The translations under genes were made by a program, and so were the position numbers. The notes below the pieces were generated by a model. The model ran no database searches and was not told the origin of the DNA. It saw only the letters and a list, made by a program, of their open reading frames with translations. A stretch of 64,000 nucleotides of DNA from Romanomermis culicivorax (taxonomy: Eukaryota > Nematoda > Enoplea > Mermithida > Mermithidae): assembly GCA_963922205.1 (NCBI GenBank), contig CAWUHX010000014.1, positions 1,300,001 through 1,364,000 on the forward strand, in the 5' to 3' direction. Below are positions 13,251-59,129 of this stretch, one piece after another (position 1 is the first letter of the stretch; each line of letters opens with the position of its first letter).

Positions 13251-13256
13251 TGTTTC

Positions 13257-17525: not shown

Positions 17526-17559
17526 TTCCTACTTAAGAGCTGTAAGCCAGACTTAAGGT

Positions 17560-31060: not shown

Positions 31061-31659
31061 TGTCAGGGATGGACATAGTCTATCTCCAAGTTGTGAAGAA
31101 ATAGCCGAAGTCGACGCGTTTTGCGTCGACGCCGATTTGCATAGACACCGTGCATAAATATGCCGGTCGTCTATGTTTTTGGTCATTCAGTGATTATTGT
31201 TTTTGTTTTATTAAGAAGAAAATCGGCGGCCCGTTCGAGCATTATATTATATTATTTGTTATAATATTTTTGTGGTGGAGCATTTCCGCCTGGAATACAA
31301 CGACCCTCGGCCGATCGCCTTTGGATTACTCGCAGCGGAGGGAACGCAGGTTAGACCCCGGATCTCTGGAGAGCCACCCAGCGTGCAAGTCTACATTTAC
31401 AACTCAGTTCTCGGCCTGACTTCTGATTTTGCCCCTGGTTTGAAGTTACTTGAGCTCAGGGTGTTATCATTTCTTCTGCAGTTCTTCGGGACGAAAGCAG
31501 GAGATTTTTGTTGAACTTGAGACTGACCGAACTGTTGCACGCTTATTCTACCTAAGGTTTCGGCCTGATTAGGTGAATTGGTAAGCGACTGATTAGGTCT
31601 ATTTTTGGTATCAAATCCTTTATTTATATTTCTCAACTTCCACCAAGTCTCATTTCAAC
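31061..31659 (+). repeat. G1 5' LTR
   Basis: Begins TGTCAGGGATGG and ends TTTCAAC (or CAACA if a 4-bp duplication is assumed). A TATA-like GCATAAATATG lies near 31150. A GTCGACGC/GCGTCGAC stem with a five-base loop is at 31110-31130. The primer-binding site TGGTGGCTTCTGAC starts 3 bases after the LTR. Confidence 0.92.
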
Positions 31660-31758
31660 AAGTGGTGGCTTCTGACTCTCAAAGTAACGGAAAAACAGAG
31701 GCAAACTCGAGGAGTCAAAAAACCTATTGGTTTTTATAGAGAACTGGGAGGTTACAAA

Positions 31759-34700: not shown

Positions 34701-35376
34701 AATGCATAATCCGATGATAGCAGAATCAGTACAGGAAAATTCTATTGAAGAAGATCAATGTTCGACAATTGAGCAGCTGGAAGATCTAGTTCCAATAGTG
34801 GCTTGTAATAGAATTTACATTCCACATGGAACAGATCAGCTAGTGAAAGCTAAATTGTGGAATAAATCCTCGGCAAATAGAATAAATGGAATCATCATCG
34901 AAGGAGATGATTCAGAAACGAGATTCAGAGTAGATGATACTATAGTTGATGGTTCAAAGGAGGACTTTGTATTGATGATCTCCAATAATACAGGTTCCCG
35001 TTGCCTGATAGAACCTAATCAAGTTCTTGGCTACTGTAACTCCGTATTTCGGGGAGAGTCAAGTGTATCAATTTTACAGGCAGGAAATAGTGGAGAAAGT
35101 AGCCTAGAGGGCATTTTCGATGCCAAGGAATCAAAATTCGATGGAGTTGTGTTTCTGGAAGCATTGTATAAAATGACCTCTAAAGCTACAGTGTCAGAGG
35201 AGCAGAAAGAGATGGCGATACGGCAACTCGTGAAATACCGGGATGTATTTAGCTTACCTCATGATCCTCTGACAACTACTCCCCATCTTACTTGTAAAAT
35301 TAATACAGGTGATGCTAGCCCTGTAGCGAAACATTACTACAGAGCTGCCATTGAACGTCGACCATATATCAGATAA
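31759..35376 (+). CDS. G1 Gag-protease
   Basis: A 1,205-residue frame. An acidic N-terminal region is followed by a helical capsid-like domain (about 310-500), collinear with G2 gag (for example LKRDLLDIKQEPDEAATKFL against [20 protein letters not shown]). Then comes a zinc-knuckle variant C-x2-H-x4-H-x4-C (630-643) in place of CCHC, and an RGG-type basic patch (655-700) likely to bind RNA. An aspartic protease follows with DTGA (catalytic D866) and the LILGTDF flap-proximal motif (about 935). The frame ends at TAA, after which the same frame continues directly into RT. Unlike G2, gag and protease are fused without a stop. Confidence 0.9.
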   Translation: MNKDNLGGLKSSGLPRTPPGKKARDAEKLIVLTSAETSAEEDNCSDHRPLSVENEGNRPTTSTAVEREDDDAILSANEDQIFKIPSSTNLPKRGEYLHPPIMGPARPLPKMNIPVLDQQQRRPINKPAQLFDTYHRLYWDNEREEHRENPRKSSLEDKLDQIMNRLDVYDSIFANIANTGSQKATKANEPRQSNAGCLEQGGALKFEQGQEELAWQNDGITLQQDCRRKDQKSSLGPKEQYMSHLPTTSKVEQRVSSCGFDEGLKNPSLINPTISQQSSCIRGETPSVRQQVMPTMIPIDPALWVNPAQVGPTVYDIQRAIKPKLLQSDMPSKQVLAFLVELEGEFRKNTPDEVKLEALTRLSRDLPRELAEESTTYTEARDKILNYCAPDCNLDMLKRDLLDIKQEPDEAATKFLKRVRAHVNLVYQSETKEFKNKIIIETFFYRSSLTYQLELQKDIAKFKNWYDLSQAVYEIELKYRNAIRTFGPREQPMMINTAQMEIAEEQQADVNVIQRPYESAQKRNRDFRRPNTERQTPMQSSQNQLVDIADDEVLEVPPQQAIMPRQQPVEEPKKDSLMVALSKEFIKMAQCYEEIRNSTKAQEEAITALTQKVDKAKAKSQQEVQQRKWCTYHENNTHNTVDCRTLNFYKGLQNRGRGGNSGRGFGRGSPRGSFGNFRGRGNFRGNFRGNYGGSRGGFGNEGERGAYQVSFPDDEAENLQEYAEFQEYVKLEKLREQMRLLQATTQLMLPGPNLMDQQPVIANQSSNTLLVPQKVVSPSQASGQTDQPPSSGINSVQQEPMMEMKLCGLHNCAMEKEENVPEMECSAEYGRKATAEELDMLAKYPRTQPFHIKVTVCSTTAKALIDTGAQCSVMSGDFLKKSPGLEYTAYPKILKVTVANGKVVSAHGYVQFQMQCDYGRFPVKAIIIPGSAEDLILGTDFLAHPEVNTVIDFGKGSMTMMGVKKSIDLLTSDKKAIPIVGMHNPMIAESVQENSIEEDQCSTIEQLEDLVPIVACNRIYIPHGTDQLVKAKLWNKSSANRINGIIIEGDDSETRFRVDDTIVDGSKEDFVLMISNNTGSRCLIEPNQVLGYCNSVFRGESSVSILQAGNSGESSLEGIFDAKESKFDGVVFLEALYKMTSKATVSEEQKEMAIRQLVKYRDVFSLPHDPLTTTPHLTCKINTGDASPVAKHYYRAAIERRPYIR
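35374..35376 (+). promoter_or_regulatory. In-frame TAA between protease and RT (possible readthrough site)
   Basis: The codons run ATC AGA TAA CAT GTG CAG GAA ATG, with RT continuing in the same frame. G2 has TGA at the homologous codon, also followed by CAT. The stop lies inside the conserved N-terminal RT leader, 12 codons before VIEPS. Confidence 0.6.
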
Positions 35377-38310: not shown

Positions 38311-38741
38311 TGGCAAAATCTGCCGATTTGCGTGTGTTTATTGTGTATATTTAATAAATATTTATTTTAATTGTGTTTTGTAACGGTTGAAATCCGTTTT
38401 CATATTTTTTGAAATGTAGGATTGTGTTTTAACGAAGCGGGGGAAAAGCTTTTAAAGCGAAAGACCCGTTTTCGTACATTTTTTCATTTTACACTTTCTT
38501 GGTTAACAACTCCAAATCATTCAAAAGTTTCAAAAGTCGTGTCCCACGTCTGCTCTTCATTTTCAAAATATTTTTCGAAAAATTGTGAACGGAAGAACCC
38601 TCCCGTGAGGTAATTTGCAGCCGCAAGGGAATAGACTGTAAATGTTTTATACATCTGTCTACTTTTCACAGCTGCAAATCCGGTTTTAAAAATTTTAAAA
38701 ATTATTTCGGTGCAAAGAATCGGGCCCACAAAAATTTTCGA

Positions 38742-38847
38742 ATGGGTACGCCGAACGATTGTACTCGGACGTACAACGCGACGGACGATGAAGTCCAATT
38801 TGGGGAGCCGCACCCGCGGCAGAACAATCGCTATTTTTTGGTCGACG
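38742..38847 (+). CDS. G1 ORF3 leader exon
   Basis: An ATG frame of 35 codons plus one base, ending VDG at a GTAAGC donor. It matches the G2 leader exon at 52408-52519 in its last part (RQNN-YFLVD), in phase (1) and in donor sequence. A matching acceptor was not settled; the next open frame (39451-39846) has no phase-compatible acceptor with a good pyrimidine tract. Confidence 0.55.
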
Positions 38848-39450
38848 GTAAGCAACCATTTTATATTTGTAAATAGTTAGGTAAGAAAATGAGCGGAGGT
38901 TACGCTCGTCAGGGGTGTTTTGTAAGACTGTTTCTGTGCCCTTTCTCGGACGAGCTACCAACTGGGAGTTGAGAATTTAACACAAAAAGTTAGGTAGAAG
39001 GGGGTGGCAAGGGCCGAACCTAGGTGATCCGAAAAAGACTTCGGTCGAATTAGGTGATCCGATTAGGGGAGGTTTTTGTCATTCCCGCTCCCTCTGGTTT
39101 CCGCAAAGCGGCGAAGAAGGGGATTAGCAGGAGTTAGTCGCGGAGATCAAGATTGTGATCGATTGAGCTCATCGAGTAGCAAGAGTGTGTTGGGTTTAGA
39201 GTGAAAAACACCTAATTTCACATACTTTTGCCTATCAATTTTGGCTTCTATAAAGGGACACCCAACGGCCAGAAAGGCTAAAAATCAAGTTCCCGCTCCA
39301 AAATTTCAAAAGTTCAAAAGTTAAAACGGTGTTCTGCACAAAGGTGCTAGAGTTTCCCCAAAGAGTTAAAGGAGTAATAGTGGGTAAAATTACCCAAAGA
39401 GTTCAAAAGGGTCTCGAAAATGCACATAAAAGAGTTCGGCCTTTCGATCT
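38848..39450 (+). other. G1 region where the ORF3 exonuclease would lie
   Basis: About 600 bases without a usable reading frame and with no FDTE, GYN-x3-D or Y-x3-D motif. In G2 the equivalent position holds the intron and then more than 4 kb of coding sequence. The exonuclease part is therefore absent from G1. Confidence 0.6.
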
Positions 39451-39846
39451 GTGATGCTTAGTAGCAATCACCAGGTCGGAGTGATGGGAGCCAAAAGAAG
39501 TGCCAGTTCAGACTTGCAAAGCTCTGTTAAGTTCAGTAAAGCTCAAGACGGAAAAACTGGTGCTACTTTGAAGGTTCCCGGACCTCAAGGTCAGGGTCAA
39601 GGCCAAGGAAGCCAGGAAATAGCTCCGAGTACGCAAGGAAAGGTGCAAAAGACTGGTAACCGAGGCCGAGGCCAGTTTCAGTTCCACAACCCCAACCGGG
39701 GTGGTCGTGGAGCGGTGCGTGGCAGAGGTGCCGCGCCTCAGGTGCAAGGAAGAGGAGGCCAACAGGGCCAATGGGTATGGAGGCCTTACAGAGGTCGTGG
39801 AGGAGCCCAGAGAGGGGCGCAAGGAAGCGGCGGGCCGCAACAGTAA
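39451..39846 (+). CDS. G1 RGG-rich protein, C-terminal remnant of ORF3
   Basis: 131 codons, beginning near ATG 39454. Dominated by GQGQGQG, RGRG and RGGQ repeats, like the last ~90 residues of G2 ORF3, and ending GGPQQ where G2 has GGGQQ. The downstream GCCGCAT-A-TTTTGG is shared. Likely an RNA-binding RGG tail. Whether it is expressed alone or spliced to the leader exon is unknown. Confidence 0.5.
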
Positions 39847-39894
39847 ATTAGCCGCATAATTTTTGGCCAAAAAATATCGTTTTCGCATTTATTT

Positions 39895-39985
39895 TTCACA
39901 AAAACACAAAATACAAAAAAAAATACAAAACCACAAAAATACAAAAAAAAATATAAAATACAAAATACAAAAAAAAAATTTTCTT
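39895..39985 (+). repeat. A-rich AATACAAAA repeats after ORF3
   Basis: Imperfect repeats of AAAATACAAAA; an equivalent tract follows G2 ORF3 at 57605-57655. Its position is conserved in both elements. Confidence 0.6.
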
Positions 39986-40107
39986 ATTTGTTGCGTGCTT
40001 TAAATTTTTTATTCGTTTTCGTACCTCGCATCGCCAAAACGGGCATGTACAAAAAATTTATTTTTTCACTTAATCTCATTTAAATCTCACCTTATTTTTC
40101 TTTTTTT

Positions 40108-40554
40108 TTGCTCAAATCGATACGCCCGGGAGATTTTGATTTTTTTTTTGTGATATGCGTACTAATGTATATATTTTGTAAATTATTTAGATATTTTAGA
40201 AAATGTTTTTTGGCGAGGGCAACGTTGGAAAAAAAGGCGGAGGCTTCACGGCGAAACACACAACCGGAAAGAGATAGACAGACAAATGTTCTCTCCCTGG
40301 CGTCCAGCGTAAAGCACGAAACGAAAGGTCACGGGATGGACGGCAACCGAAGACCCTCGGCCCTGGTGCAGGTCAAATTGGATTTCGGCGGTACGCCAAC
40401 AAAGTCAAGCCGACGCGGAGTCGTCGATCCGTCTGCATCCAGACCAAGAGGTAGCGCACCCGGACGGCCTTGTGGACATTCCGGTATGCCTGGTAAAAGA
40501 CTTGACGTAAGAGGGTGGTCATTCAGAAAGCTTTCCGCAAGGGGGCATGAATGA
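40108..40554 (+). CDS. G1 possible small 3' ORF
   Basis: 148 codons with a hydrophobic stretch near the N-terminus (about residues 10-28) and a basic, Arg/Ser-rich remainder, ending before the 3' LTR. G2 has an open frame in the same place (57898-58128), but the proteins do not align convincingly by eye. May be non-coding 3' leader to the polypurine tract (GGCTCGAGGGA at 40664-40674). Confidence 0.25.
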   Translation: MLKSIRPGDFDFFFVICVLMYIFCKLFRYFRKCFLARATLEKKAEASRRNTQPERDRQTNVLSLASSVKHETKGHGMDGNRRPSALVQVKLDFGGTPTKSSRRGVVDPSASRPRGSAPGRPCGHSGMPGKRLDVRGWSFRKLSARGHE

Positions 40555-40674
40555 CCAAAAAGGCTCAGAAAACTGCTTTGACTGTATTAGGGCCTGAAAA
40601 GGTTCCAAAATTGTCATTGCGGCGTAATATGAATCTTTTTAACCTCCCGTTGGTCAGTTTCGAGGCTCGAGGGA

Positions 40675-41273
40675 TGTCAGGGATGGACATAGTCTATCTC
40701 CAAGTTGTGAAGAAATAGCCGAAGTCGACGCGTTTTGCGTCGACGCCGATTTGCATAGACACCGTGCATAAATATGCCGGTCGTCTATGTTTTTGGTCAT
40801 TCAGTGATTATTGTTTTTGTTTTATTAAGAAGAAAATCGGCGGCCCGTTCGGGCATTATATTATATTATTTGTTATAATATTTTTGTGGTGGAGCATTTC
40901 CGCCTGGAATACAACGACCCTCGGCCGATCGCCTTTGGATTACTCGCAGCGGAGGGAACGCAGGTTAGACCCCGGATCTCTGGAGAGCCACCCAGCGTGC
41001 AAGTCTACATTTACAACTCAGTTCTCGGCCTGACTTCTGATTTTGCCCCTGGTTTGAAGTTACTTGAGCTCAGGGTGTTATCATTTCTTCTGCAGTTCTT
41101 CGGGACGAAAGCAGGAGATTTTTGTTGAACTTGAGACTGACCGAACTGTTGCACGCTTATTCTACCTAAGGTTTCGGCCTGATTAGGTGAATTGGTAAGC
41201 GACTGATTAGGTCTATTTTTGGTATCAAATCCTTTATTTATATTTCTCAACTTCCACCAAGTCTCATTTCAAC
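40675..41273 (+). repeat. G1 3' LTR
   Basis: Identical to 31061-31659 except G at 40852. Preceded by a purine-rich GGCTCGAGGGA, the likely polypurine tract, which G2 shares as GGCTGAGGGA. Followed by AGATG. Confidence 0.92.
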
Positions 41274-41278
41274 AGATG

Positions 41279-44688: not shown

Positions 44689-45165
44689 TGTTGAGGTGGT
44701 CTCAGGTGCACGTGTTCAGCTTCCGGCATCAGTGCGCAGGTGGTTGGACGCGGCGAAAAGTGGCGAGAAAGAAAGATAAATTTGCATAGGTTATTTCTGC
44801 CACTGTTTTGCGTTTTTGCTGTCTTTTTATTAGTGTTAAAAAAGATACGTTTTATGGAGCGATGCCGCCATCGCCCTTTATACAATATTTTGTTTATTAT
44901 TGTTTATTTGGCGTCGCCACTAGCTACCCAATACAACTTGAACCCGTAAGTGTATTGTTCTGTGAGCGTAGGGGAAGGAGTCTATAAGAATAGGATTGGA
45001 GACTTGGGTAGGAACTCCCGAGGTAGGTGCCAAGGTGTTCTGCCTGAGGTTTGGTGAAAGTTCCGGTGAGTATCTGGTGAAACGTCTGGGAGAGTTTTGT
45101 TGTTGGTGTTGTTGTTAGCCTGTGGTCAGAACTGTTGCATAGTATTGACCCCACAGTTGCCTAAC
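44689..45165 (+). repeat. G2 5' LTR
   Basis: Begins TGTTGAGGTGG and ends CCTAAC. As in G1, the sequence AAGTGGTGG follows, giving a PBS starting TGGTGGACTC. The small frames inside are not genes. Confidence 0.9.
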
Positions 45166-45265
45166 AAGTGGTGGACTCTTAACGCCTCTCACGACGGATA
45201 ACCGGAGAACCACCAGAAAAATAACTAAACCTCCTGGGTTTTATTTACAGGCACATACCGGAAAA

Positions 45266-47743
45266 GTGAAAAAGATGAGTATTCCGGTAGGAAAAATGTT
45301 GAGGACTCCTCCTAGGTCACATGAACCTAGTGTTTCGAATCTGGACTCTGCTGAAGAACACGCAGCGGTAGAAAAGGTTCAAGCACAGGCGCCTGAGACT
45401 GAAGGAAGGAGAGAGAGTAGAAATGCCGAAGTGGCAAAAATGGAAGAGGAATTGAGGAAGAGTAGTTTTGAGATGGCTAGGTTAGCCGAGATTGAAACTA
45501 CGGTAAGTGGTAGTGTCAGAGGTCAGCAGACCTTTGAGAAGGAGAGACCGACGTCGCCCTCGAAGTTGGTCCATCCGATGGCCGAGACGCTGGAGGAGAT
45601 TAGACGGAAATCGAAACCGGTGTGGAGGTCGAACATGATGGACATGAATTACGACGAGTATTACGAGAACGCGCCGGCCGATTTATACGACGACAAATAT
45701 TCGAGGCGATACGAGCCCGAAATTACGAATCGGAGTCGACGAGAGGATCCAAGGGATCGAGTCGATCCCAAGGATTTACGATTTAATGCGCTGGAGAAAA
45801 AGGTCGAATTATTGATCAAAGTTATCGAAAGCGCGCAAGTCAAGGATAGGGAAACGGAGGACGATCAACGGAGGAAGATAGGTGAGTCTTCTTACCTTGA
45901 GAATAGAGTTGAGAGAGTAAGTGAACCTAAGAGAGAGGTTCATTCAGAAGTTTATGTCAGGTCTCACCAGGATAGAGACAAATATTGGGCTAGAGATAGA
46001 GGTTGGACTGAGGAGCCGCAGAGTTCGAGGAATGCTGAACAAGCACAATCGAATGCCTACGGTTACTCAGAGAATAGGAGGTCTAGGGAAAGGAAGGTGA
46101 CTATTTGCGACGAATCGTCCCAGGGAGAGGATAGGTTTTCTCGTCCTACTCCTTGGAGAGATACCGCAAATAGAGCTGACCTTAGCCCTGAGAGGAGAAG
46201 AAAGAAGAGAAAGTCGAAGAGTCGAAAGAGATCTCACAGATCTAGAGCTAGAAGTAGACATTACTCAGATAGTGATAATAGCAGTTCATCTACTTCGAAC
46301 TCTAGCTCAAGTGTTGAAGTTGATGTGAGAGATGTGGTAAAGGCCTTGAAACATAGACCTTTGCATGATAGTATAAAGCCGACGGAGGCTTTGAAATTTT
46401 TTACTGATCTGGAAAGTGAGTTTCTGGAGAATACGGCTGATAAAGTGAAGAAGGAGTGTTTGAGAAGGTTGTCTCAGAACACGGCGAGGAGGATAGCGAG
46501 AACATCCTCAAGTTATAGAGAAGCGCAGAGAAATATTTTAAAGTATCTCGCGCCGACTTATGATTTGAGGATGCTCAAAAGAGAGTTGTTTAATATGAAA
46601 CAGGGAGAAGGCGAGTCAGCCTTAGAGTTTTTAAAAAGGTTGAGTAATCATGTGGATCTGGTCTATGCAGATCAGAGTGATCAAGTAAGGCAAGAGAATA
46701 TTATTAATGCCTTCATTTATAAGAGTAGTCCGTTGTATCAGACGGAGTTGCAGGACGTATTGCCATCGATGAAAACTTGGCAAGACCTTGCATATGCTGT
46801 AACTCAAATTGATAAGAAATATAAGAATGTGTTTACTACTTTTGGAGCCAAGGATAAACCCATTGTAGTGAATCAAGTTGTAGCTACGGAGGAGATATGC
46901 CCGGAAATTGCTTTTGTCGGGAATGCTCCGTATGGAAGTACTAAAAAGTATAACCAGACGAAGTCAAGACCACAAAATCAGTTGCAAAAGGCAGTGGAAG
47001 AGGAGAGAAGTGAGGAGAATGCGGAAGAGATGCTACCTGGTCTGTCGCCTCGTGATGTCAAAAAGTCTAATGAGGAGCAGGCCAAGGAGTCTTTTCTAGC
47101 TATTCTCTCAAAGGAGTGGCTACAATTGGTTCAGAAAGTAGATAAATTACAAGTTACTCAGAGTGAAGCCTTAAAAGAGTTGACTACTGTGAAGGCTGCG
47201 TCTGCTGAAAAGCAGAAGCAGTTGAAGCAGCAGAGACCCTATTGCATTTATCATAAGAATAATACGCATGCTACTGAGGAGTGTAAGACATTAGCATACC
47301 GGCGTCAGCAACAGCAGCGCGGTGGATTTAACCGTGGCATGTCTAATCAATATTATGGTGGTGATAGGAATGCTTCATATAGAGGAAGTTTTAGAGGTAG
47401 AGGTGGACCTCAGTTTGGATTTAGAGGAAGAGGAAGAGGTGCCTATTATGTAGGATTCCCCGAAGAAGATCAAATGTACGGGTATGACCCAGAATTTGAG
47501 AGATACAGGGAATTCTGCAGACTTAGGGAGCAAGGCATCCAGTTGCAGAGGCAGCCTCAGTTGATGTTACCTGCACCAACTAGTCAACCTGCTATTCAGG
47601 GTAGTACCGTCCAGGATCAGTCTGAATCATTTGTTTCGAACCAGTCGCAACCTAGTTCGCATAACGTAATGGTGACAAGCCGTACGGATGTGGATGATGA
47701 AAGCGAAAAGAGTAGAAACAAATCTTCTAGTTTGGTTCTCTGA
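45266..47743 (+). CDS. G2 Gag
   Basis: 825 residues. A charged N-terminal half carries a very Arg/Ser-rich stretch ([21 protein letters not shown] region, about 310-345), reminiscent of SR proteins. A capsid-like helical domain (about 352-540) is collinear with G1 gag. A C-x2-H-x4-H-x4-C zinc knuckle starts at C660, and an RG/RGG patch lies near 690-730. The frame ends at TGA 47741-47743, and the same frame continues into protease. In G1 the two are fused. Confidence 0.9.
47741..47743 (+). promoter_or_regulatory. In-frame TGA between Gag and protease
   Basis: The codons read CTC TGA AGT ATT, and the frame stays open on both sides. A stop at the gag/protease boundary is where classic retroviral readthrough occurs. 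G1 has no stop here. Confidence 0.45.
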
Positions 47744-48967
47744 AGTATTATTCACCTGGATAAGGTGACACCTCTAGAGAAAGTGAAAGAAAGAGATTTG
47801 GCTCATGTGAAATATGGAAGGAAAGCAATGGACATAGAGAGAAGGTTGTTGGAAAATTATCCGAAAACAGTTCCGTTCTATATAAATGTGGTTATTAAAG
47901 AAACGGCTACCAGAGCTTTAATTGATACAGGAGCTCAGTGTACGGTCATGTCTTCTAAGCTCCTGAAAAGGGCATTAGACGTTGATTATACAGTGTACCC
48001 TCCTATTCTTAAAGTGACTGTAGCTGATGGAAAAATTGTGCATGCCTATGGGTATGTACCAGTTTGTATGAAGACTGAATTCGGAAGTTTTCCAGTCAAT
48101 GCTATAGTGTTGCCAGATGCAGGTGAGGACCTGATCTTGGGCACAGATTTTTTAGCACACCCAGACTTAGGTGTGGTGATTGATTTCAAAAGGAATGCCA
48201 TGACAATACAGGGCATTGAGAGAAAGATTGACGTAGTTCAAGTTCCTTCTGTAACTACTGTGCAAACGGTAATGGAAGAAGTAACTAAAGTCAGTGTGGC
48301 GTCGACTGATTGCCTAAATCAAATTGTTTATCCAAAAGTTTGTCTGCTAAAGACAACTGTTGCAATTGTTGCATGTAGTAAAACCTACATTCCATATGGA
48401 ACAGATGTTTTGATGAAGGCAAAACTTTGGGATCAACATGGAGATGCCACATTGAACGGAATTATCGTCAAATCAAAGGATTCTGAAAGGAAGTTCAGAA
48501 TGGAGAAAGCAGTTGTAGACGGATCACAAGAGGAGTTTGTAGTACTAATCTCCAATACCACAGGTTCTGGTTGTCGGTTTGAGAGAGATCAAATCATTGG
48601 CTATACAGAATCTATGCTTATTGAAGATGATGATACGTACAAGAAAGTGAAAGAAATGAAAAAGATAAAGGAGGAGAAGGAATATCAGACCTGCATGGTA
48701 AAGGAAGGAATGCCTGCATTATCAAAAGCTGATTCTGTAGAGTTCTATACTTCACTATGCAAAATGATATCGAAGGCGAAAATTTCGGAAGAGAATAAAA
48801 CGGAAGCTATAGAGTCTTTGTTGAAGTACAGAGATGTCTTTAGCTTGCCTGGTGATCCGGCTACTACAACCCCAGCTCTGAGGTGTAAGATAGATACAGG
48901 AGATGTGAGACCTGTAGCAAAAAGATATTACAGAGCTTCAATTAATAGTCGGCCAGGAGTAAGGTGA
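47744..48967 (+). CDS. G2 protease
   Basis: The frame follows the TGA directly; the first good start-like codon is GTG 47765. Counting from there, the aspartic protease motif ALIDTGAQC has its catalytic Asp at residue 54, and LILGTDFLAHP lies near 123. About 250 further residues, collinear with G1, lead to RT. No ATG precedes the protease core in this frame segment, so translation probably comes from upstream. It ends at TGA 48965-48967. Confidence 0.88.
   Translation, partial: SIIHLDKVTPLEKVKERDLAHVKYGRKAMDIERRLLENYPKTVPFYINVVIKETATRALIDTGAQCTVMSSKLLKRALDVDYTVYPPILKVTVADGKIVHAYGYVPVCMKTEFGSFPVNAIVLPDAGEDLILGTDFLAHPDLGVVIDFKRNAMTIQGIERKIDVVQVPSVTTVQTVMEEVTKVSVASTDCLNQIVYPKVCLLKTTVAIVACSKTYIPYGTDVLMKAKLWDQHGDATLNGIIVKSKDSERKFRMEKAVVDGSQEEFVVLISNTTGSGCRFERDQIIGYTESMLIEDDDTYKKVKEMKKIKEEKEYQTCMVKEGMPALSKADSVEFYTSLCKMISKAKISEENKTEAIESLLKYRDVFSLPGDPATTTPALRCKIDTGDVRPVAKRYYRASINSRPGVR
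48965..48967 (+). promoter_or_regulatory. In-frame TGA between protease and RT, same codon as G1 TAA
   Basis: The codons read GTA AGG TGA CAT ATA AAG GAG ATG. In G1 they are ATC AGA TAA CAT GTG CAG GAA ATG. The residues on both sides (R before, H after) match, so the stop is positionally conserved although its identity changed. Confidence 0.65.
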
Positions 48968-51931
48968 CATATAAAGGAGATGTTGGATCAAGGAGTGATC
49001 GAGCCCTCGAAGTCACCGTGGGCTGCACCCTTGTTCCTGGTTGGAAAGAAAGATGGAACTACGAGACCCGTAGTGGATTTTAGAGGTATAAACGAAGTGA
49101 CCAAGGATGATAAATATCCCATCCCGAGAATGGATGACTATTTAGATTGCCTTGGAAGAGCGAAGTTTTATACGACTCTAGATTTGAAGTCGGGATATTG
49201 GCAGGTCCCGATGGAGGAGGAGAGCAAGGAGAAAACGGCTTTTATATGCCAAGAGGGCTTGTTTCAGTTCAAAGTGATGCCGTTTGGGTTGAAGAATGCA
49301 CCTGCTGAATTCCAAAGGATGATGGAGAGAATCCTTGGGGATTTGGTATGGAAAATTTGCCTAGTGTATATAGATGATATTATCATCTTCTCGAATACGT
49401 TCGAGGAACACTTAGAGAATTTGAACTTGGTGCTAGAAGCGTTGAGGAAGGCGAAGTTGACTCTTAAGCCAGAGAAATGTGAATTTCTTCCCGAGAAGGT
49501 GCACTTTTTAGGACACATCTTGGATGCGAATGGAATTTCTCCGGATCCTAAGAAGGTCAAGGCGATAACGGAATTTCCATTCCCGGATTCTGTTAAGAAA
49601 ATGCAAAGATTCCTAGGTATGCTACAATGGTGTAAGAAATTTATACCAGACCTAGCAGCACTAGCTGAACCCTTGTACAAATTAACAGGCAAGAAGGGAA
49701 CATGGAATGTGACAGAGTTACATTACACAACTTTTGAGAAGCTCAAAGTAGCATTGACCTCAGTACCTTTCTTAAGACATCCAATTTTAGATGGATCTGC
49801 GCGATTCATTCTTCAAACGGATGCCAGTGGAATTGCATTGGGAGCAGTGTTATGTCAAGAGACTGACTCGGAACGTTGGGTAGTTGCCTACAATAGTCGG
49901 ATATTGCGGGCAGAAGAAAGGAAATGGTGCGCCACCGAAAGAGAATGCTTAGCTGTGGTTTACGGCCTTAAAATTTATAAACATTATCTTTTGGGCCAAA
50001 AGGTCAGGATTCAAACTGACCATAAACCATTATTATCAATGAGGGTGAATACACAGACTAACGACAAACTCAAGAGGTGGTACGCATTCATTTGCCAGTT
50101 TAATCACAAGTTGGAGTATGTGCCTGGCAGACAGAATGCCATGGCAGATTTCCTCTCCAGGAAAGAGGAACCGGATGAGCAGAAAGAGAAGTTGCCACCA
50201 AAATGGGAGCTTATCTTTCAGAAAGAAGAAGTGAAATCTCTTACTGAAGACGAAGTCCTTAACCAAAACCACAAAGTTTTAGTGAAACAACTTCGGGAAC
50301 TCAGAGGAGATGAAGTGGATGAGGCTGTAGGAGTCTTCACTCCGGTGAAGATGGCCACAGCTTCAGTGGCTTCAAAGTATAGTGTTAGTGATGAAACTCA
50401 ACTTAATATTTCTCCAGAATTTGATAATTATCGAACGCCTGAGAAATATGAAATTGAGGCGGTAGTCACTAGACAAATGGCAAAAAACTTGCAGCAGGAG
50501 GAAAAAGGACATCCTCCTGGGCAAGCAAAACCTAAAGAAGAGGTGAAGAGAATTTTTGAACCGAAGGAGAAGGAGTTTGAAGAAGCCCCAGAGATTGAAG
50601 ATGGTAGACCGAAAGGGCTTATCTCAAACGCCTTGATGTCAAAGTTGCAAGGAAAGGATAAAGATCTAAAAGTGATCTTCGAGAAACTAGGTGCTAGTAG
50701 TAGCACTAAGTCTCAAAGTAACTTTTATATTGATCAAGGGATACTATATAGAGAGACTTTTGGCGAGGCAGAGGATCAAGTTGTTGTCCCCTCTGTTCTC
50801 AAAAAAGTTGTCCTGCATCAGTATCATGGAGCAGTGATGATGATGCATCAAGGGTTTAAGAGAACCCTTGCTATTATTAAAAAGCGGTTCTGGTGGCCGA
50901 GCATCGAGAAGGATGTTCGGAGCTGGATCAGCTTTTGTCCGATATGTCAAATTGCGACTCCAGGAAAGGCTACAATTCCGCCATTGAATCCAATTATTCC
51001 TAGAGGACCATTTGACATAGTCTCTGTAGATATTGTGGGAATATCTCCCATGAGCGAGAAAAGACCGTATGTGATAGTATTTCAAGATTACTTTACAAAA
51101 TGGGTGGAAGCAGAAATGATTCTGGATCAATCTGCTGTAACCATTGTGGACAGTTTTCTTCGAAATATTGTGTTCAGGCATGGAACCCCGGTGAAATTGT
51201 TGAGTGATAACGGTTCATGCTTTACAGCTGATTTGATGACGTCAGTCTGTAAATTATTGGAGTGTCAGAAGATTTTCACAACTGCCTACCATCCACAAGG
51301 AAATGGAATGGTTGAAAGGTTTAACCAAACCTTGATCAAGCAGTTGCGAAAGGTTGCTATAGAGGATTCAGATAAGTGGGACAGATATTTGCAATCTGTC
51401 GTTTTTGCGTATAATGCCACACCTCATACCTCAACGAGATGTTCTCCATTTGCCTTATTGAGAGGTCATGAGGCTAATTTTGGCATTAGTATTGGTGTTG
51501 CTAGAAATATAGTTCTGCCAATGAACTATGAGGCTTGTAAGCATATACTAACCGAAAGTTTAGTAGAAACTTATGAAGTCATTTCAGAGAATATCAGGAA
51601 GGCTGCGGAGAGCAGTAAAAAGTTTTTTGACCCTAAAGCAAAAGCTCATGATTATTCCGTCAATGATTGGGTTTTGCTGAAAGTCGACAAACAGAAAAAA
51701 CTGGGTCTGCCGTGGCAAGGACCATATGTTGTTACTGATAATAGAAGATTATCAGAGAATGTGCTTGAAATCGCTCACTGGAGAGAGCCGCTGAAAAAGC
51801 AGGTGGTATCTGTGAGCAGGTTAAAGCACTTTCGCTACGAGACCGGCAGATGGCTGCAGTCTAACGACGTGTCATCTAAGGACACGCAGTTTACTGTAGA
51901 TTCAAAAATTGATAATTATAAACTGCCGTAG
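48968..51931 (+). CDS. G2 Pol: reverse transcriptase, RNase H, integrase
   Basis: Numbered from ATG 48980: RT with TTLDLKSGYWQ (D68) and YIDDI (D132, D133), RNase H with TDASG and QTDHKPL, a linker, and integrase with an H-H-C-C finger and D684-D743-E779 (D-x35-E). All catalytic residues are present. Overall identity to G1 Pol is high across RT and integrase and low in the linker. The C-terminus extends past the GPY/F-like PWQGPYVVTD segment. Confidence 0.93.
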   Translation, partial: HIKEMLDQGVIEPSKSPWAAPLFLVGKKDGTTRPVVDFRGINEVTKDDKYPIPRMDDYLDCLGRAKFYTTLDLKSGYWQVPMEEESKEKTAFICQEGLFQFKVMPFGLKNAPAEFQRMMERILGDLVWKICLVYIDDIIIFSNTFEEHLENLNLVLEALRKAKLTLKPEKCEFLPEKVHFLGHILDANGISPDPKKVKAITEFPFPDSVKKMQRFLGMLQWCKKFIPDLAALAEPLYKLTGKKGTWNVTELHYTTFEKLKVALTSVPFLRHPILDGSARFILQTDASGIALGAVLCQETDSERWVVAYNSRILRAEERKWCATERECLAVVYGLKIYKHYLLGQKVRIQTDHKPLLSMRVNTQTNDKLKRWYAFICQFNHKLEYVPGRQNAMADFLSRKEEPDEQKEKLPPKWELIFQKEEVKSLTEDEVLNQNHKVLVKQLRELRGDEVDEAVGVFTPVKMATASVASKYSVSDETQLNISPEFDNYRTPEKYEIEAVVTRQMAKNLQQEEKGHPPGQAKPKEEVKRIFEPKEKEFEEAPEIEDGRPKGLISNALMSKLQGKDKDLKVIFEKLGASSSTKSQSNFYIDQGILYRETFGEAEDQVVVPSVLKKVVLHQYHGAVMMMHQGFKRTLAIIKKRFWWPSIEKDVRSWISFCPICQIATPGKATIPPLNPIIPRGPFDIVSVDIVGISPMSEKRPYVIVFQDYFTKWVEAEMILDQSAVTIVDSFLRNIVFRHGTPVKLLSDNGSCFTADLMTSVCKLLECQKIFTTAYHPQGNGMVERFNQTLIKQLRKVAIEDSDKWDRYLQSVVFAYNATPHTSTRCSPFALLRGHEANFGISIGVARNIVLPMNYEACKHILTESLVETYEVISENIRKAAESSKKFFDPKAKAHDYSVNDWVLLKVDKQKKLGLPWQGPYVVTDNRRLSENVLEIAHWREPLKKQVVSVSRLKHFRYETGRWLQSNDVSSKDTQFTVDSKIDNYKLP

Positions 51932-52407
51932 CGCGTAGCGCTGTTTATCGCGTGTGTGTGTGTGTGCGTATGAATACCCCCCCCCATATTTTTTCGTCCC
52001 CAATTCTGTATTTAAGTACAAATTGTATTTAATTGTAATTATTTATGTATTTATCGCGTATTTATCGTGTATTTTTAAATTTTTCTCGCGTAAATCTTAA
52101 AATTTCTCAAAATTCTTGGTAAAAAACCACTCATCGCAAAAATTTAAAAATTTTAACTTTTTTCGCGGCCTAAATTTTAAATTTCCCCGAGTCCGAGTAA
52201 TTTTTTCGGAGGAAATAGTTAGTTGTTGCCCCCCAATTCTGTGAATATTGGAAGAATTGGGAAAACTGCTGAGTTTTAGAGTGAAAATAGACAAAAAGTA
52301 GCGAAAGCGGAAACTTTGTCGATTTTTCAGCTCTTATAAAAAATTATCAAAAATTTTCGAAAATTGATAGCGCAGAATTCGAAGAATTTGAGAAAGAAGC
52401 GGTCGAG

Positions 52408-52519
52408 ATGTCCAGGCCCCCCAATGGACGCCGGACAAAGCAATACCTGGTCACGGACCCCCACGTGACCTACGGTCAGCCGCAGGTGCGGCAGAATAAT
52501 CAGTATTTCCTAGTCGATG
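52408..52519 (+). CDS. G2 ORF3 leader exon
   Basis: ATG frame of 37 codons plus one base, ending RQNNQYFLVD at GAT G/GTAAGC. The G1 counterpart (38742-38847) shares the end of the peptide, the phase and the donor. This conservation across diverged elements argues for real use of the splice site. The downstream frame from 52520 to 52683 is intron read-through. Confidence 0.7.
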
Positions 52520-53225
52520 GTAAGCGACCTAAGTTTTTAAACTTAGTGAATCTTAAAATTTATTGGGCAAAGCAGGATGTTATAGCCCACGGGTGTCTAG
52601 ATGAAGGCCTAGACAATTGTAAAAGTTTAGTGGGAACAAATTTGTTCTGTCAACTTGAAAAAGTGTGGCAAAGCTGCCCGTAGCGCAAAATTTGGACTTT
52701 TTGCGAAACTACATTATTCCTCTACACACATAGCGAGTTGAATAAATTCGTCTATGTGATGGGGAAGAAGTGGAGTGTAGCAACTAGTCGACTAGGGGTA
52801 GATAATTTCAAAATTTATTTAAATTTCTAAATTCCATCTTAATTCACTTTTCTACGAATTTCCACATTTTGGGTAAATTAGTAAATATATTTTCAAATTT
52901 CTTCTTGGAAATTCTTAATTTATTAGTTGGATAGGCCGTTTTGGGCGTTGGATTGAGACGGCTAGCAGTCGATTGATGGAAGACGCAGGTGGTCTGTGCG
53001 TGTACTCCCGTATAAGGTAGAAGTCGGGGCCGCACTTGTGTTTAACTATCTGCCAACACTAACCCAATATATGTTTGGTACCTTATTGTCCCCTGCTTGC
53101 AATTTCTTTTTTCCTTTTTCCTAATTGTGCTTACTATCTGTGGTGAAGGTAGAGTCTAACCGATGTGTGTCCGCTTCGAAAAATTTCCATTAAAAAGTTG
53201 TAAACATTTCGCCTGAATTTTTTAG
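52520..53225 (+). other. Intron within G2 ORF3
   Basis: 706 bases from GTAAGC to TTTTTTAG, typical sites. Joining 52519 to 53226 keeps the frame (phase 1) and leads straight into the long ORF3 frame, which is open from the acceptor. Splicing would produce a subgenomic mRNA, as for env in other elements. Confidence 0.65.
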
Positions 53226-56200
53226 ACTACAATGTTAAACGCATTGTCAGAGTCGGCGAATTGGAACGGTGGTTCGCCACGAATTTCGGGAGATTTCCGT
53301 TGGAATTGACGGAACCGAAATTGGTCGAAATAGGTAAGGTGGCTGAGATGATCGAAATCCTGAAGGTGAGCAGGTTTCGAGGACAGCCAATTATGGGGTT
53401 TGATACAGAGAAAGTTACTCAAGAGTATGTGAGTAAGGTTTTCGCGACTTCTGGGGTTGAGAACCCAAAAGGGAAGGAGTTCGCGAGAGTCATTAGCTTC
53501 TCGACGGTAACTGGAGACACCTTTGTTGTAGATACTACGACAATCATGCCGAAGGAATGGACGCTCATTCATGAGCTCTTAGATTCGGACATGCTTCTCG
53601 TTGGATACAACTTGGTTACAGATCTGGTCGCCATCTGGAATGTTAATGGCGCAGGTAGAAAGCACCAGGATGTTGATCTGACACCAGAGATCAAGCATAG
53701 AGTAACGTCTTCGTATGGCCGTTATTACGACGTAGCCAAGGTAGGAGACCAGTTGAACGGAAGATTTTTGGCATTGTCCAGGAAGTTGGGACTTTGCCCG
53801 GAGACTTTCAAGCTGAAAGGGTTGTTCACGGAGCTGTATCTGGCGGACGTTGGTTATTTCCAAATCGATTTCCGTCAGAGAGCGCAACGTGAACGATTCT
53901 GTAGGCACACATTGACACAGTTTGAAATACGGTATTCAGCACTGGACGCCTACTACTCATTGTTGGTTTTCCTAGCGTTTTTCCACTATGAGTTAGCTAT
54001 GGAAGTCGAGGTCGCATTCCAGTATTTTCCGCATGATTTGATGAAAGCGGATCAAATTCAGATAATGGCTTTTAGGTTGTATAGGTTTTTTAACATGATA
54101 CATGGTGAAAATTTTCTGCAGACTTTTTGTGGAAGTCCGGAAGTAGAGGAGCGGCAGTCATCGGCTATGTATCACGTGATGAGACAGGAAGTGTATGCCC
54201 GTATGGCTGCCCAAATGGATACCTCATTTGGAGGCTATACGGAGTACAGCTTCCCTCATTACGAGTCAAATCCGAAGAGAGGGAGAGACGTAAGTATACC
54301 TAAAGGTATTCATCCTGATTATACCGTTAAAGAAAAAAGTAAGAATGTAGACGGTAACGATACGGTAAGTGAGGATGAAGAGTTCGAAGAAGCTTTGTCG
54401 GAAAAGCAGATTAGAACTCGAATTACAAAGAAGGTGGTAGATATGGTGAATCAAGGGAAGAGTTTCAGTAGACTTGATGAACCAGTATCTATGGTTTTAT
54501 ACGAGAATTTCCTAAGGTATAGGAAAGAAATGAAACAGTTGTTGGAGATAACATCTCTGGAAGTTGATTACCACGAGTATGAACCAGTCAGAGTTTCGAA
54601 TGGTAAAGACTCGTATGTAAGGCAACACTGGAGTATGGATATCGGTCCTTATTCTGAAATATTGATCGAGGACAATTTTAAGAATTTGGAGTCAGTGTGT
54701 AATAAAGTTCCGCTCACGTTTCATTTGTTTTGGCCAGCTTGTAGAGAGGAAGCGGAGGAGTACCTTACCTCTCTCCTTGACCACAACTATTTGAGATCCT
54801 TTAGCCCTGAGGGAAAGGAACAACTCTTGAAGATGTTGTGGAGGGGAGATAGGTATGGTCAGTACTTATCATTTTTGAATAGTCTTCCAGTAACGGAGGT
54901 GCATACGCCAACAAAGGGCGATGCGATTACATGTTGGGGAAATCGTTTCGGATTTTTGCCGATCCGATTTTGGCCCAAGACAAAGTCATGGGAGCAAAGA
55001 CCGGAAGATAAAAGGAAGCATTTGGCGGAGTGTCCGCAGTACAAAGATAATCCGTACTGCTATCAGAGGTTTTACTTCCGCCAGATAGCTGTCCGAGTTC
55101 CAGGTTTGCGATACCCAATAGATATGAGTGAGGATGCAACGAAGGAGAATCAGAAAAAGAGCGTGTTAGCGTATCAACCGGAATACGTTCCAGGTTACGA
55201 GCCGCCATTTTTCGAGCCGATATTGCCGTCTGATGCTCCAGGTTTTACGATTACGCATATTGGCGATAAGGTTGTAGTGACGCTGACAGGTAAGCAGCCA
55301 GCAGTGCCGGTTACAGGCACTGAGGTAAGCACAACGGTGAGTCAACAATCTGGAGTTGATATGAGTAGTTTGGATCAGGTGCAGGGAATGCAGGCTGAGC
55401 CTGTTGCGGCGAAAGCACAGCAACAAGCGATACCTGCAGACCTCAACACCCCCATAGACTTGAATCAGGTAGGAGAGGATTTAGAAGTGGACAAGGAGGT
55501 CACTGTTGAATCGTTGATACAGCCTGATCAAGAAACACAGGTAACTTCTTTACTAGATCAGACAGAGAGTTTACTTTCTGGAATGGATGTTAGGGCAGAC
55601 CAGATGTTGGATGAAAGCAATCTCATAACGATTGCTGCAAGTCCAACAATAGAGGAGATTGAAGCAAGGCTCAGAGAGCGAGCTGAAAAGGAAATTGAAA
55701 GGCAGAAAGAGATTTTCGCTAAACAGCTTGCGGAGCAAAAAGCGAGATTAGATCAGCAGCAGAAGCAGCTGGAGCAGGTATTGGCTGGTTTTACCGCGCA
55801 GCCGATGCCTCTGGCAGCGCCTACAGTCGTGCAAGCTCCGGCCAAGCCGCCTACTGCTTATCATATCCCCAAATTGCCGGTGCAGCCTGCTAGTACGCAG
55901 GTCATCCAGCCTGCGGTCAGCAAGGTTACGCCGACAGTTCAAGTAGCGCCCAGAGATCCAAGTATGGACGGTGGTATACCAGGTATGTATACTGCCGAAG
56001 AGGTTAGAAAGTTCATAGCGGAAGGTCGTACGGACGATCAGATTAAAAGACTAGGAAGGAGAAAGTTAGCCCGAAGGGCCAATAGGGCTAAAAAGAGAGA
56101 TGAAGAGGATTTCATTGAAATTAGCGATGGTGAAGGAGAACAGACAGGGAGTTCTACGTCTGTGGACTTGAAGTTTGCAGGATCTACAACTTTATTGACG

Positions 56201-57610
56201 GATTCAACCAAGTCCAAGACTGGAACTACGCCGACGAGCCTGATGCCTGGAACCAAAAGTTCTACGAGTCAGGTGCAGTCGACGGTTGCTTCGGCTAAAG
56301 TACCTAGTAAATCGTCTGCATCTCAGGTAAGTGCAACGACGAAAAGTACTTTGGCTAAGCCCGTGTCTAAGGTGGATAAGACTTCTCAGCAGGACCAGAG
56401 CAGCGCTTCAGGGAAAAAAGTTGTTTCTAAACCCTCTACGTCAGAACCGACAAAATCGGTCAAGAGAAGTAGAGATAAGGAAGTAACTTTGGAGTACCTG
56501 AGTTCTGTTTTGAGAGACTACTGGGATGTCCATAAGAAGTTTCCCTTGGTGAAGGGAAGGATAGATTTTTCGACACCGGAGGTGATCGAATTCTTTGCTC
56601 AGGATATGCCAGATGATAATAGGAACCAAATCATCTGGGCATTGGTGAACAATGGAGTAGAGGAGCTTTACGAGAACTACGGGGATCACTTTGATGTTCA
56701 AGGTGGTTTCCTGTATGATCATGTAAATGTTCCTGAGCCCATTTGGGAGTATATTTGGCTCAAGTTCATGCCAAATTGGTTTCATCATTTTGATGCAGAA
56801 ATAGTAATGGCAGCCGTGAGATACTTATGTACCATTGTGTTGCTAAAGTTAGAACAACAGCAGTTAGGCCCGAGACATATTGGTGCAATTGATGCACGGG
56901 CCAAATCATTTGTCACAGAAAGGTATTATTCTATCTACCTGCGGGGAGAAGGTAGTACTGCATTCAGGGAAGCGTATGCCAACCGAATGCAGGAACACCA
57001 ACAAACTGCAGTAGATATGGCAGCAAAGAGAAGGTTGTCGGACATGGTTCAGAAATTTTCTGGTAAATTCCAGAAGGCCGAGGATGAGGAGGGGCAACCC
57101 TTCAAGATTCCCATTTTAACAGAGAGACAACCTAGAGATACATCCAGGTCCAGGAGCCAGCACTCGCGACAATCGTCTCACTCGCAGGGTCGGCACCGGC
57201 CTGGGGTATTCAAATTACCGTATGCTAATCAACAGAGTCAAGGTAGGTCCAGTACCTCAGCTTCTGGAGTATCTTCCGTAAGTTCCACTCAGGGCACGTA
57301 CCAGAGGGGAACTGGAGGGGGATATGGCCGAGGCTGGGGTCAGGGACAGGGTCAAGGTAGACCCTTTAAGATGGTTAATACGCAACCGTATAGAGAACAG
57401 GCGATGGGCGGACCCCCTCGTGTGGCCCAACCTCGAGGAGTTTTTGGGGGATTCCTCAGGGGTCGTGGAGCTCGGGGTGGTCCCTACCCTCGCCGTGGTA
57501 GCTTCCAATACGGCGGTTATGGTGGCGGCGGGCAACAATATTTTCATATAGCCGCATCACTTTTGGACCAAAATTCGTTATTTCGTACAAATTTTATTTC
57601 AAAAATATAA
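53226..57610 (+). CDS. G2 ORF3: DEDDy 3'-5' exonuclease with RGG tail
   Basis: About 1,461 codons, 1,498 residues when spliced. Numbered from the codon at 53261: the exonuclease domain (about 40-245) has ExoI FDTE (D48, E50), ExoII GYNLVTD (D121) and ExoIII YSALD (Y225, D229) with Q220 just before, as in RNase D/WRN-type enzymes, which remove 3' nucleotides with two metal ions. An uncharacterised region with a Cys/His cluster (HLAECPQ, YCYQRF, about 586-605) follows. Then come a coiled coil (about 796-845), a basic patch (RRKLARRANRAKKR), a Ser/Thr-rich linker, a helical domain (about 1074-1265) and RGG/GQGQ repeats (about 1347-1427). It occupies the env position but has no signal peptide, transmembrane span or glycoprotein features. 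The exonuclease assignment is strong by motif; its role in the element is inferred. Confidence 0.8.
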
Positions 57611-57655
57611 AAATACAAAAACACAAATAAAATACAAAATACAAAAAAATATATT
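57605..57655 (+). repeat. A-rich AATACAAAA repeats after G2 ORF3
   Basis: Same kind of tract as 39895-39985 in G1, again just after the shared GCCGCAT-A-TTTTGG sequence. Confidence 0.6.
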
Positions 57656-57897
57656 ATCTCGTTTTATTGTTGCTTTAAATTTTAAAATTTTTTCTCGTTT
57701 ACCGGTGCCCAAAAGTTGCCCGGCGAAATTCGTCTTTCCGTCCATCTTATTTCGGGCGTGTATAGCCCTCGTATTTTTTCTCGTTTAATTTCAGGGCCTG
57801 AAAAAGATGAAGACGTGAAAATTTTAATTGCATTTATAAAATTTTCGTAATTAGATATTTGAAATATTTTATAGAAAATATTTTTTACTGAGTAGAT

Positions 57898-58282: not shown

Positions 58283-58755
58283 TGTTGAGGTGGTCTCAGG
58301 TGCACGTGTTCAGCTTCTGGCGTCGGTGCGCAGGTGGTTGGACGCGGCGAAAAGTGGCGAGAAAGAAAGATAAATTTGCATAGGTTATTTCTGCCACTGT
58401 TTCGCGTTTTTGCTGTCTTTTTATTAGTGTTAAAAAAGATACGTTTTATGGAGCGACGCCGCCATCGCCCTTTATACAATATTTTGTTTATTATTGTTTA
58501 TTTGGCGTCGCCACTAGCTACCCAATACAACTTGAACCCGTAAGTGTATTGTTCTGTGAGCGTAGGGGAAGGAGTCTATAAGAATAGGATTGGAGACTTG
58601 GGTAGGAACTCCTGAGGTACGTGCCAAGGTTGCCTGAGGTTTGGTGAAAGTTCTGGCGAGTATCTGGTGAAACGTCTGGGAGAGTTTTGTTGTTGGTGTT
58701 GTTGTTAGCCTGTGGTCAGAACTGTTGCATAGTATTGACCCCACAGCTGCCTAAC
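58283..58755 (+). repeat. G2 3' LTR
   Basis: Collinear with 44689-45165. Preceded by GGCTGAGGGA, the likely polypurine tract, and followed by AGAAG. Confidence 0.9.
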
Positions 58756-59129
58756 AGAAGCAGCAAAAGTAAACATTTGCTCCAGATCTTACCACTTGAG
58801 TTCGAAAGTAAAAATAGCAAGACATATATGTATAGTTACAGTCTTCAATACGCCAAAGGATCAGCCAAATTATGAGCTATGCCGGTCATAAAATCAATAG
58901 CACTAATTTCACCCTGATCAAACTATAGCTTGAGTGTAAAAAATTCTGAAGTTCCAAATGCAACATAATTTCTTTCTGATAATTTACAACTCTGTGTCTA
59001 TGTGACTTGCTGTGTGGTACTGTATGATTGTACGATAATTTACAATGCTGTTTTTGCTTAGTTTGGATGGTCTTCAATAATGATTACATTTCTCATTTGA
59101 TACTATCTTTTCAGTGTCCAATTAGAATT

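Follow-up and report, generated by a model that had tools for sequence, protein, structure and literature searches.

DEDDy-Type Exonuclease Genes in LTR Retrotransposons

The closest described systems are the LTR retrotransposons Juno and Vesta from bdelloid rotifers, whose ORF3s are of the DEDDy type and were acquired at least twice, with Athena elements also carrying DEDDy ORF3s, as stated in the excerpted text of Rodriguez et al. 2017 (PMC5408684). The window analyzed here, a stretch of 64,000 nucleotides from the mosquito-parasitic nematode Romanomermis culicivorax, contains a Ty3/gypsy-type element with a comparable gene. By description in that excerpt, the rotifer and nematode elements share (i) an extra RNase D-like DEDDy gene located 3' of pol and (ii) the occurrence of such a gene in at least two lineages within a single genome. 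On the other hand, they differ in that (i) the hosts belong to different phyla; (ii) the motif II acid is Asp in Romanomermis, whereas the excerpted rotifer paper reports DEDD changed to DEED (PMC5408684); (iii) a dUTPase stands between protease and reverse transcriptase (RT) in the rotifer elements as there described, and none was found in the protease (PR) or pol frames of family A, the family of the window element (Pfam scan, E up to 1); and (iv) the Romanomermis gene is predicted to contain a conserved intron, and in one Romanomermis family RT was not detected. The sequence-only reading of this DNA knew of no LTR element described with such a gene; Juno and Vesta, according to the same excerpt, already are, and the Romanomermis elements represent a new, better-supported case of a known arrangement and not the first. 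Among the matches listed, the open-access literature yielded no nematode LTR element with a DEDDy gene.

EXD2 and MUT-7-type proteins (PF01612) have three motifs in common with the Romanomermis domain and are the best solved-structure matches of a profile built from families A, B, and C, but are cellular enzymes. Ty3/gypsy elements with an env-like third gene resemble the window element in the position of that gene and its probable expression from a spliced mRNA, whereas here an enzyme-like domain takes the place of the envelope.

Architecture of the Host Element

The window contains a family A and a family B gypsy element, with the following features:

44689-58756, + strand: Ty3/gypsy-type element, family A, with the third gene downstream of pol
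44689..45166, + strand: 5' LTR, family A, 478 bases, TGTTGAGG...CCTAACA
45149..47743, + strand: gag frame, 864 codons, stop to stop
47744..48967, + strand: aspartic protease frame
48968..51931, + strand: reverse transcriptase - RNase H - integrase (pol), by Pfam scan
58283..58756, + strand: 3' LTR, family A, 474 bases
31061..41274, + strand: second gypsy element, family B, LTRs 31061-31660 and 40675-41274

Judged from sequence features, namely its LTRs, a short target-site duplication, and the order protease - RT - RNase H - integrase, the family A element is of the Ty3/gypsy type. The duplication GAAG precedes the 5' LTR at 44685-44688 and follows the 3' LTR at 58757-58760, and the LTR pair shows 10 differences over 474 aligned bases, with 4 gap columns in addition. 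The gag frame is assigned by position and by a weak PF03732 match (E 0.067, under the cut-off in the Pfam scan). The protease frame (PF13975, 3e-10) shares its reading frame with gag and RT and is delimited by stops in the window copy, while pol matches RVT_1 (1.1e-39), RT_RNaseH (3e-30), Integrase_H2C2 (6e-18), and rve (7.5e-12). A programmed stop at the PR/RT boundary was considered and rejected, the stop at 48965 being present in just 2 of 12 aligned copies, the window among the two; the 12 include the window, and one of 12 loci fetched aligned nowhere and was left out.

The Third Gene and Its Predicted Splicing

The third gene and its flanking signals are organized as follows:

52325..52330, + strand: candidate splice acceptor TTTCAG, 5' of the third gene, kept in 19 of 20 copies
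52408..52519, + strand: predicted exon 1, 37 codons plus one base, ending GTCGATG/GTAAGC
52520..53225, + strand: predicted intron, 706 bases
53226..57610, + strand: exon 2, exonuclease domain and long C-terminal region
56951..57538, + strand: Gly/Arg/Gln-rich basic tail, residues 1250-1445, by composition
38742..38847, + strand: third-gene exon 1 with donor in the window's family B element

The frame of over 1,400 codons between this element's pol and 3' LTR that had been read from the letters is confirmed as a stop-to-stop frame of 1468 codons (53204-57610), separated from the 3' LTR by 672 bases. The gene extent given in that reading, 53226..57610, captured the exonuclease frame but missed the predicted upstream exon and the 706-base intron. 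The intron acceptor TTTTTTAG is kept in all 20 family A copies and the GT donor in 18 of them; family B places its predicted third-gene intron at the same position and phase, and its exon 1 is 54% identical to that of family A over 37 residues (E 1e-8). No GT(A/G)AG donor was found in 45167-45400, directly after the 5' LTR, a point against splicing. As predicted from sequence, the third gene is probably made from its own spliced mRNA and not within a gag-pol polyprotein.

The exonuclease accounts for about one-sixth of the roughly 1,475 residues. The rest of the protein is recognizable in family B at 28-33% identity, and at E 1 its C-terminal region matched nothing in Pfam, either in family B or in residues 333-649 of family A. 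The basic tail looks nucleic-acid-binding; among the 20 protein-ranked copies, 19 have a stop directly after residue 1445, whereas the window copy is without that stop and continues for 23 residues. An envelope gene was dismissed, exon 2 showing no clear or convincing membrane segment (highest 19-residue hydropathy, 1.72), and ubiquitin matches (E 0.16 and up) were regarded as noise.

The DEDDy Domain

The domain occupies the first part of exon 2:

53321..53998, + strand: DEDDy 3'-5' exonuclease domain, residues 40-265 of the frame

The D-x-E, D, and Y-x3-D signatures are present in order, within GFDTEK from 53396, GYNLVTD from 53603, and YSALD from 53933, in agreement with the motifs first noticed (FDTE, GYNLVTD, and YSALD, with the Tyr and four acidic residues); the acidic codons lie at 53402, 53408, 53621, and 53945 and the Tyr codon at 53933. 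Every one of the 20 family A copies ranked by protein score retains the five catalytic residues, as do 15 of 18 copies that were selected through their intron DNA and still cover the domain. Among these 18, three have lost a catalytic residue and four carry a stop, as expected of ageing copies.

The top Pfam match of the third-gene frame is PF01612 (E 0.052; 13.8 bits against a curated cut-off of 23.6), a sub-threshold score, so that a single-sequence search is no proof of an exonuclease. Two family B sequences also fall under the cut-off (E 0.0015 and 0.0047; 17.2-18.8 bits), and only family C exceeds it (41.7-51.2 bits, E down to 1.7e-13); the DEDDy membership of A and B consequently rests on their homology to C and on the motifs. 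In hhalign, the A+B profile aligns with the C profile at a score of 32.7, reached by none of 200 column-shuffled controls (best 23.6; best of an earlier set of 30 shuffles, 24.5), while against E. coli RNase D five of 200 shuffles scored as well as the A+B profile. Searched against the PDB, the mixed A+B+C profile retrieves EXD2 (1.4e-6) and a mut-7 homologue (0.0019), with weak matches from 0.06 on that include hemoglobins; the A+B profile also places EXD2 on top, but at E 0.25, near unrelated proteins. A protein search with frame residues 1-600 gave no match, and profile searches returned R. culicivorax proteins only (14 and 7 matches), none from other organisms. For the putative DnaQ-like fold, AlphaFold mean pLDDT is 37.9 in family A and 35.4 in family C. 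The sub-threshold Pfam score and the low pLDDT of family A could be taken to mean that the motifs are coincidental and the domain is no DEDD nuclease; given the homology of A and B to the Pfam-passing family C and the conservation of all five residues, we consider this very improbable.

Copies, Sister Families, and Selection

Family A numbers at least 32 copies, the scored matches comprising the window and 31 others at 96-98% (4,708 first-look candidates), and its intron is found in 40 scored copies, window included (372 candidates). Absent from the protein-ranked list are 21 of the 40 intron matches, of which 20 were fetched and 18 used, the internally deleted L067 and L072 being left out. 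A host gene or a one-off capture, the latter raised in the sequence-only reading, is ruled out by these many copies and by the presence of the exonuclease in several families. Many loci, two sister families, and the conserved place of the intron likewise rule out an assembly artefact.

Family B exonucleases are 40-41% identical to those of family A and keep all five residues in three aligned sequences. The family B element of the window, with one mismatch in 600 LTR bases, has lost the exonuclease from its third gene by an internal deletion at about 39430, and matches run unbroken across the resulting junction at 17 places, one of them in the window. Because this derivative multiplied, the exonuclease gene is not needed in cis. 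Two family A copies have one deletion in common, which also speaks for action in trans. In family C, both acids of motif I are present in 19 of 20 loci, the remaining locus having a stop there, and the residues of motifs II and III in all 20 (one of 21 rows, L031, duplicated L051 and was dropped). Copy L051 displays LTRs of 628 identical bases and gave no RVT_1 match; its pre-RNase H segment has 40 scored copies, and 35 of these are followed, 2.8-3.7 kb downstream, by a PF01612 match (compared by eye).

The exonuclease is under purifying selection in families A, B, and C, with pN/pS about 0.1: (i) 0.09 in family A, over residues 9-330 and for variants shared by at least two of the 18 intron-picked copies, whose two other frames gave 1.3 and 3.4; (ii) 0.11 in family B, all variants; and (iii) 0.13 in family C, shared variants. 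The 20 protein-ranked family A copies, minus L009, gave lower shared values (0.07 across the gene and 0.04 within the exonuclease), which were set aside because ranking biases them; in those copies the non-exonuclease part of the third gene is under selection too. The proposal that the element itself carries a DEDDy-type domain is upheld; the domain recurs in many copies and several families and is under selection.

With the exonuclease only about one-sixth of the protein and the remainder recognizable in B and selected in A, the product might be mainly an RNA-binding or particle protein that uses the exonuclease fold for binding, like Maelstrom and EXD1, inactive RNA-binding DEDD relatives being on record in the excerpted rotifer paper (PMC5408684). 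Unlike those inactive relatives, however, A, B, and nearly all C loci keep the five catalytic residues, and we regard this explanation as quite unlikely.

Proposed Function

We tentatively favor, with somewhat less than even confidence, a functional DEDDy exonuclease of the RNase D/EXD2/MUT-7 kind, produced from its own spliced mRNA and acting in trans on RNA 3' ends in favor of the element. Here we infer splicing, catalysis, RNA as the substrate, and counter-silencing. The third gene would encode a DEDDy-type 3'-5' exonuclease to which a long element-specific region and a basic Gly/Arg-rich tail are attached, from an mRNA predicted to join exon 52408-52519 to the exon from 53226 by removal of intron 52520-53225. 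The enzyme would act in trans, most likely on RNA 3' ends and to the element's advantage, and may shorten either small interfering RNAs with unprotected ends or the untemplated tails that element RNA carries, by which the host would silence and methylate the element. Against this proposal, the spread of exonuclease-less derivatives implies that the gene may be dispensable.

An action on cDNA at reverse transcription or integration, by which the enzyme trims untemplated 3' bases, removes primer remnants, or proofreads, is possible but on the unlikely side. Retrotransposons of several families carry the exonuclease, and the 3' ends of single-stranded DNA may be a substrate of DEDD enzymes, according to the excerpted rotifer report (PMC5408684). 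Nevertheless, expression of the exonuclease is predicted to be separate from that of RT, and the exonuclease-less B derivative transposed recently, as its LTR mismatch count indicates. In family C, moreover, the exonuclease is retained under selection in elements with no detected RT, although RT could be supplied in trans; this also weakens proofreading by the element's own RT.

The basic Gly/Arg-rich tail would also suit maturation of the 3' ends of the element's own RNA, for packaging or stability and with no anti-silencing role, which we judge unlikely. To our knowledge, LTR elements elsewhere do without such an enzyme, which counts against it. RNase D/Rrp6-type enzymes do process RNA 3' ends, and such a role was suggested for the rotifer genes in the excerpted text (PMC5408684).

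The silencing context of the host speaks for the favored trans-acting exonuclease. Clade I nematodes use Dicer- and RdRP-made siRNAs and DNA methylation, as shown in Trichinella; HENN-1 is missing outside clade V, and the methylation machinery is present in R. culicivorax, according to the excerpted source (PMC4323106). The copies show CpG-specific decay. Because silencing in the host clade is believed to rely on siRNAs and DNA methylation and to lack piRNAs, the obvious candidates for the substrate are already known. That the enzyme serves specifically to suppress small-RNA silencing in a piRNA-less nematode, retained by several LTR families, one of them having lost RT, and destroying unprotected siRNAs or stripping the RNA tails that feed their amplification, is an unlikely, more specific version of this reading.

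The rotifer report, in its excerpted text, left any benefit of the exonucleases to the element undecided (PMC5408684). Selection in three families, retention in a family with no detected RT, and the spread of gene-less derivatives make the question testable and together point to a trans-acting function. If silencing suppression were true, an animal LTR retrotransposon would encode its own suppressor of RNA silencing.

Architecture of the element and its third gene

The Ty3/gypsy-type element of family A carries, inside a pair of LTRs with 10 mismatches in 474 aligned bases and a further 4 gap columns, the complement of frames listed below, in which pol is followed by a third gene.

Features of the family A element
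44689-45166: 5' LTR, with GAAG on the outer side of both LTRs
between the LTRs: gag, protease and RT-RNase H-integrase frames, and the third gene
52408: ATG of predicted exon 1 (37 codons), closed by a GTAAGC donor
53225: 3' end of the predicted intron, in TTTTTTAG, after which the reading frame resumes
58283-58756: 3' LTR

The long frame described by the sequence-only reading is borne out, at 1468 codons; the gene appears to begin further upstream, in predicted exon 1. Among 20 family A copies ranked by protein similarity, the GT donor is present in 18 and the acceptor in all 20, the exon 1 ATG in 17 and the upstream TTTTCAG in 19. Family B, a sister gypsy family, has a counterpart of exon 1 (54% along 37 residues, E 1e-8); the intron agrees in place and phase between the two families. 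Splicing of the third gene is, on these sequence features, a prediction.

An in-frame stop lies at the protease/RT boundary in both elements, at 48965-48967 (family A) and 35374-35376 (the second, family B element of the window); in family A it occurs in 2 of 12 aligned copies, so that the copy in the window looks partly broken. At another family A locus, L009 (G000:C26), gag-like sequence occupies the expected exon 1 region while the intron end and third gene are retained, an internal deletion having apparently removed pol. Elsewhere in the window, repeats about 8.14-8.18 kb apart (9542-18805; 83-90% identical in the best register) enclose a frame on the minus strand that matches the Ty3 capsid (1.2e-8); this is probably a gypsy element of greater age. 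A 308-codon frame between the two elements (42341-43267) shows a weak 7-transmembrane receptor match (PF00001, 7e-4), under the cut-off.

Identity and conservation of the exonuclease

Family A alone scores under the cut-off of the Pfam exonuclease model PF01612, as do two family B sequences, and AlphaFold gave no usable model of the exonuclease. The DEDDy assignment relies on (i) retention of the catalytic residues, (ii) the match of a joint A+B alignment profile to family C, an LTR element family, and (iii) the clear PF01612 membership of the latter (E up to 1.7e-13). All five residues occur in the correct motifs in 20 of 20 protein-ranked family A copies, in 15 of 18 copies of a second, intron-picked sample, and in three family B sequences (40-41% identity). 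The A+B profile matches family C with an hhalign E of 0.0009 (0.88 for the control against pol), equalled by none of 200 shuffled controls; its resemblance to E. coli RNase D, equalled by 5 of 200 shuffles, is by itself only suggestive.

Purifying selection acts on the exonuclease in three families. In 18 family A copies picked by similarity of the intron, that is, of non-coding DNA, variants found in at least two copies comprise 77 synonymous and 26 non-synonymous changes over residues 9-330 (pN/pS 0.09) and 45 and 17 in the exonuclease (0.11), compared with 1.28 and 3.38 for shared variants in the remaining two frames; for the same two stretches, in frame, private variants give 0.30 and 0.24. 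In five family B copies found via the Pfam model, pN/pS for all variants is 0.11 across 433 codons and 0.14 within the exonuclease (off-frame, 1.9-2.5). For shared variants at 20 family C loci it is 0.13 within the exonuclease and 0.22 outside it (off-frame, 1.1-1.8). The family B and C estimates are somewhat biased, because Pfam-found copies must keep a recognizable domain.

Distribution in the genome and family C

Searches covered the assembly of R. culicivorax, a mermithid nematode of clade I (PMC10879605, available text), comprising 359,112,060 bases in 595 contigs. The PF01612 scan returned 119 matches up to E 10, the best 20 of which all align to family C (72-100% identity); ten further matches were fetched, and five with long frames belong to family B; the pol adjoining one of these five shares 96.6% identity with the pol of the window's second element. 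The protein relatives found in two profile searches (14 and 7 hits) are all from R. culicivorax. At G000:C158, three equal-scoring PF01612 fragments near 182213, 187991 and 193769 are spaced by exactly 5,778 bases, suggesting a tandem array.

The family C copy read whole, the LTR element L051, spans about 7.6 kb and has two identical LTRs of 628 bases each and a GAGC duplication. One frame encodes a zinc knuckle, RNase H and an integrase zinc domain, and another (608 codons) the exonuclease; no RT or protease was matched within these two frames. Directly before RNase H, at the place expected for RT, the 1156-codon frame has a strongly hydrophobic stretch around residue 430, with a mean hydropathy of 2.02 across 19 residues. 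Of 112 candidate copies of this pre-RNase H stretch, 40 were scored and compared by eye with the PF01612 matches: 35 are followed, 2.8-3.7 kb downstream, by a match on the same strand, and five are not. At the C-type locus L047 (586-2001, minus strand), an RT domain (5e-21) shares a single open frame, at least 472 codons long, with a PF01612 exonuclease (4e-7); a deletion has apparently fused the two.

Loss of the exonuclease and probable action in trans

The second element, whose LTRs differ at 1 position in 600, has lost about 3.7 kb of the third gene, exonuclease included. Sequence running intact across its deletion junction occurs at 17 places, counting the window (40 scored among 439 candidates), which indicates that this exonuclease-less derivative has multiplied. 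A separate third-gene deletion, with ends agreeing within a base, is common to 2 of 20 family A copies, and such derivatives imply that the product is dispensable in cis. Family C presents the opposite case, retaining the exonuclease where RT was not found. Together these observations favour a trans-acting role, and make one tied to the RT of the same molecule less likely.

Implications for element and host

The sequence-only reading knew of no LTR element with such a gene; the available text of PMC5408684 already describes LTR elements with DEDDy third genes in bdelloid rotifers. New within the literature searched are (i) the nematode host, (ii) the predicted intron within the exonuclease gene, (iii) an exonuclease under purifying selection in three families, (iv) a family keeping the exonuclease without a detected RT, and (v) a spreading exonuclease-less derivative.

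According to the available text of PMC4323106, clade I nematodes are without piRNAs, 22G-RNAs were found in neither Trichinella nor R. culicivorax, HENN-1 is absent outside clade V, and Trichinella transposons are targeted by CpG methylation and Dicer-made siRNAs without 2'-O-methyl ends; methylation machinery is present in R. culicivorax. Across 19 family A copies aligned over 51704-59107, private C-to-T or G-to-A changes affect 210 of 682 CpG positions versus 144 of 2,515 other C/G positions, a mark of methylation decay that points to methylated cytosines in these elements; over the aligned stretch the CpG observed/expected ratio is still 1.0. In a host of this kind, an element may benefit from a 3'-5' exonuclease that attacks small RNAs or the tails of RNAs.
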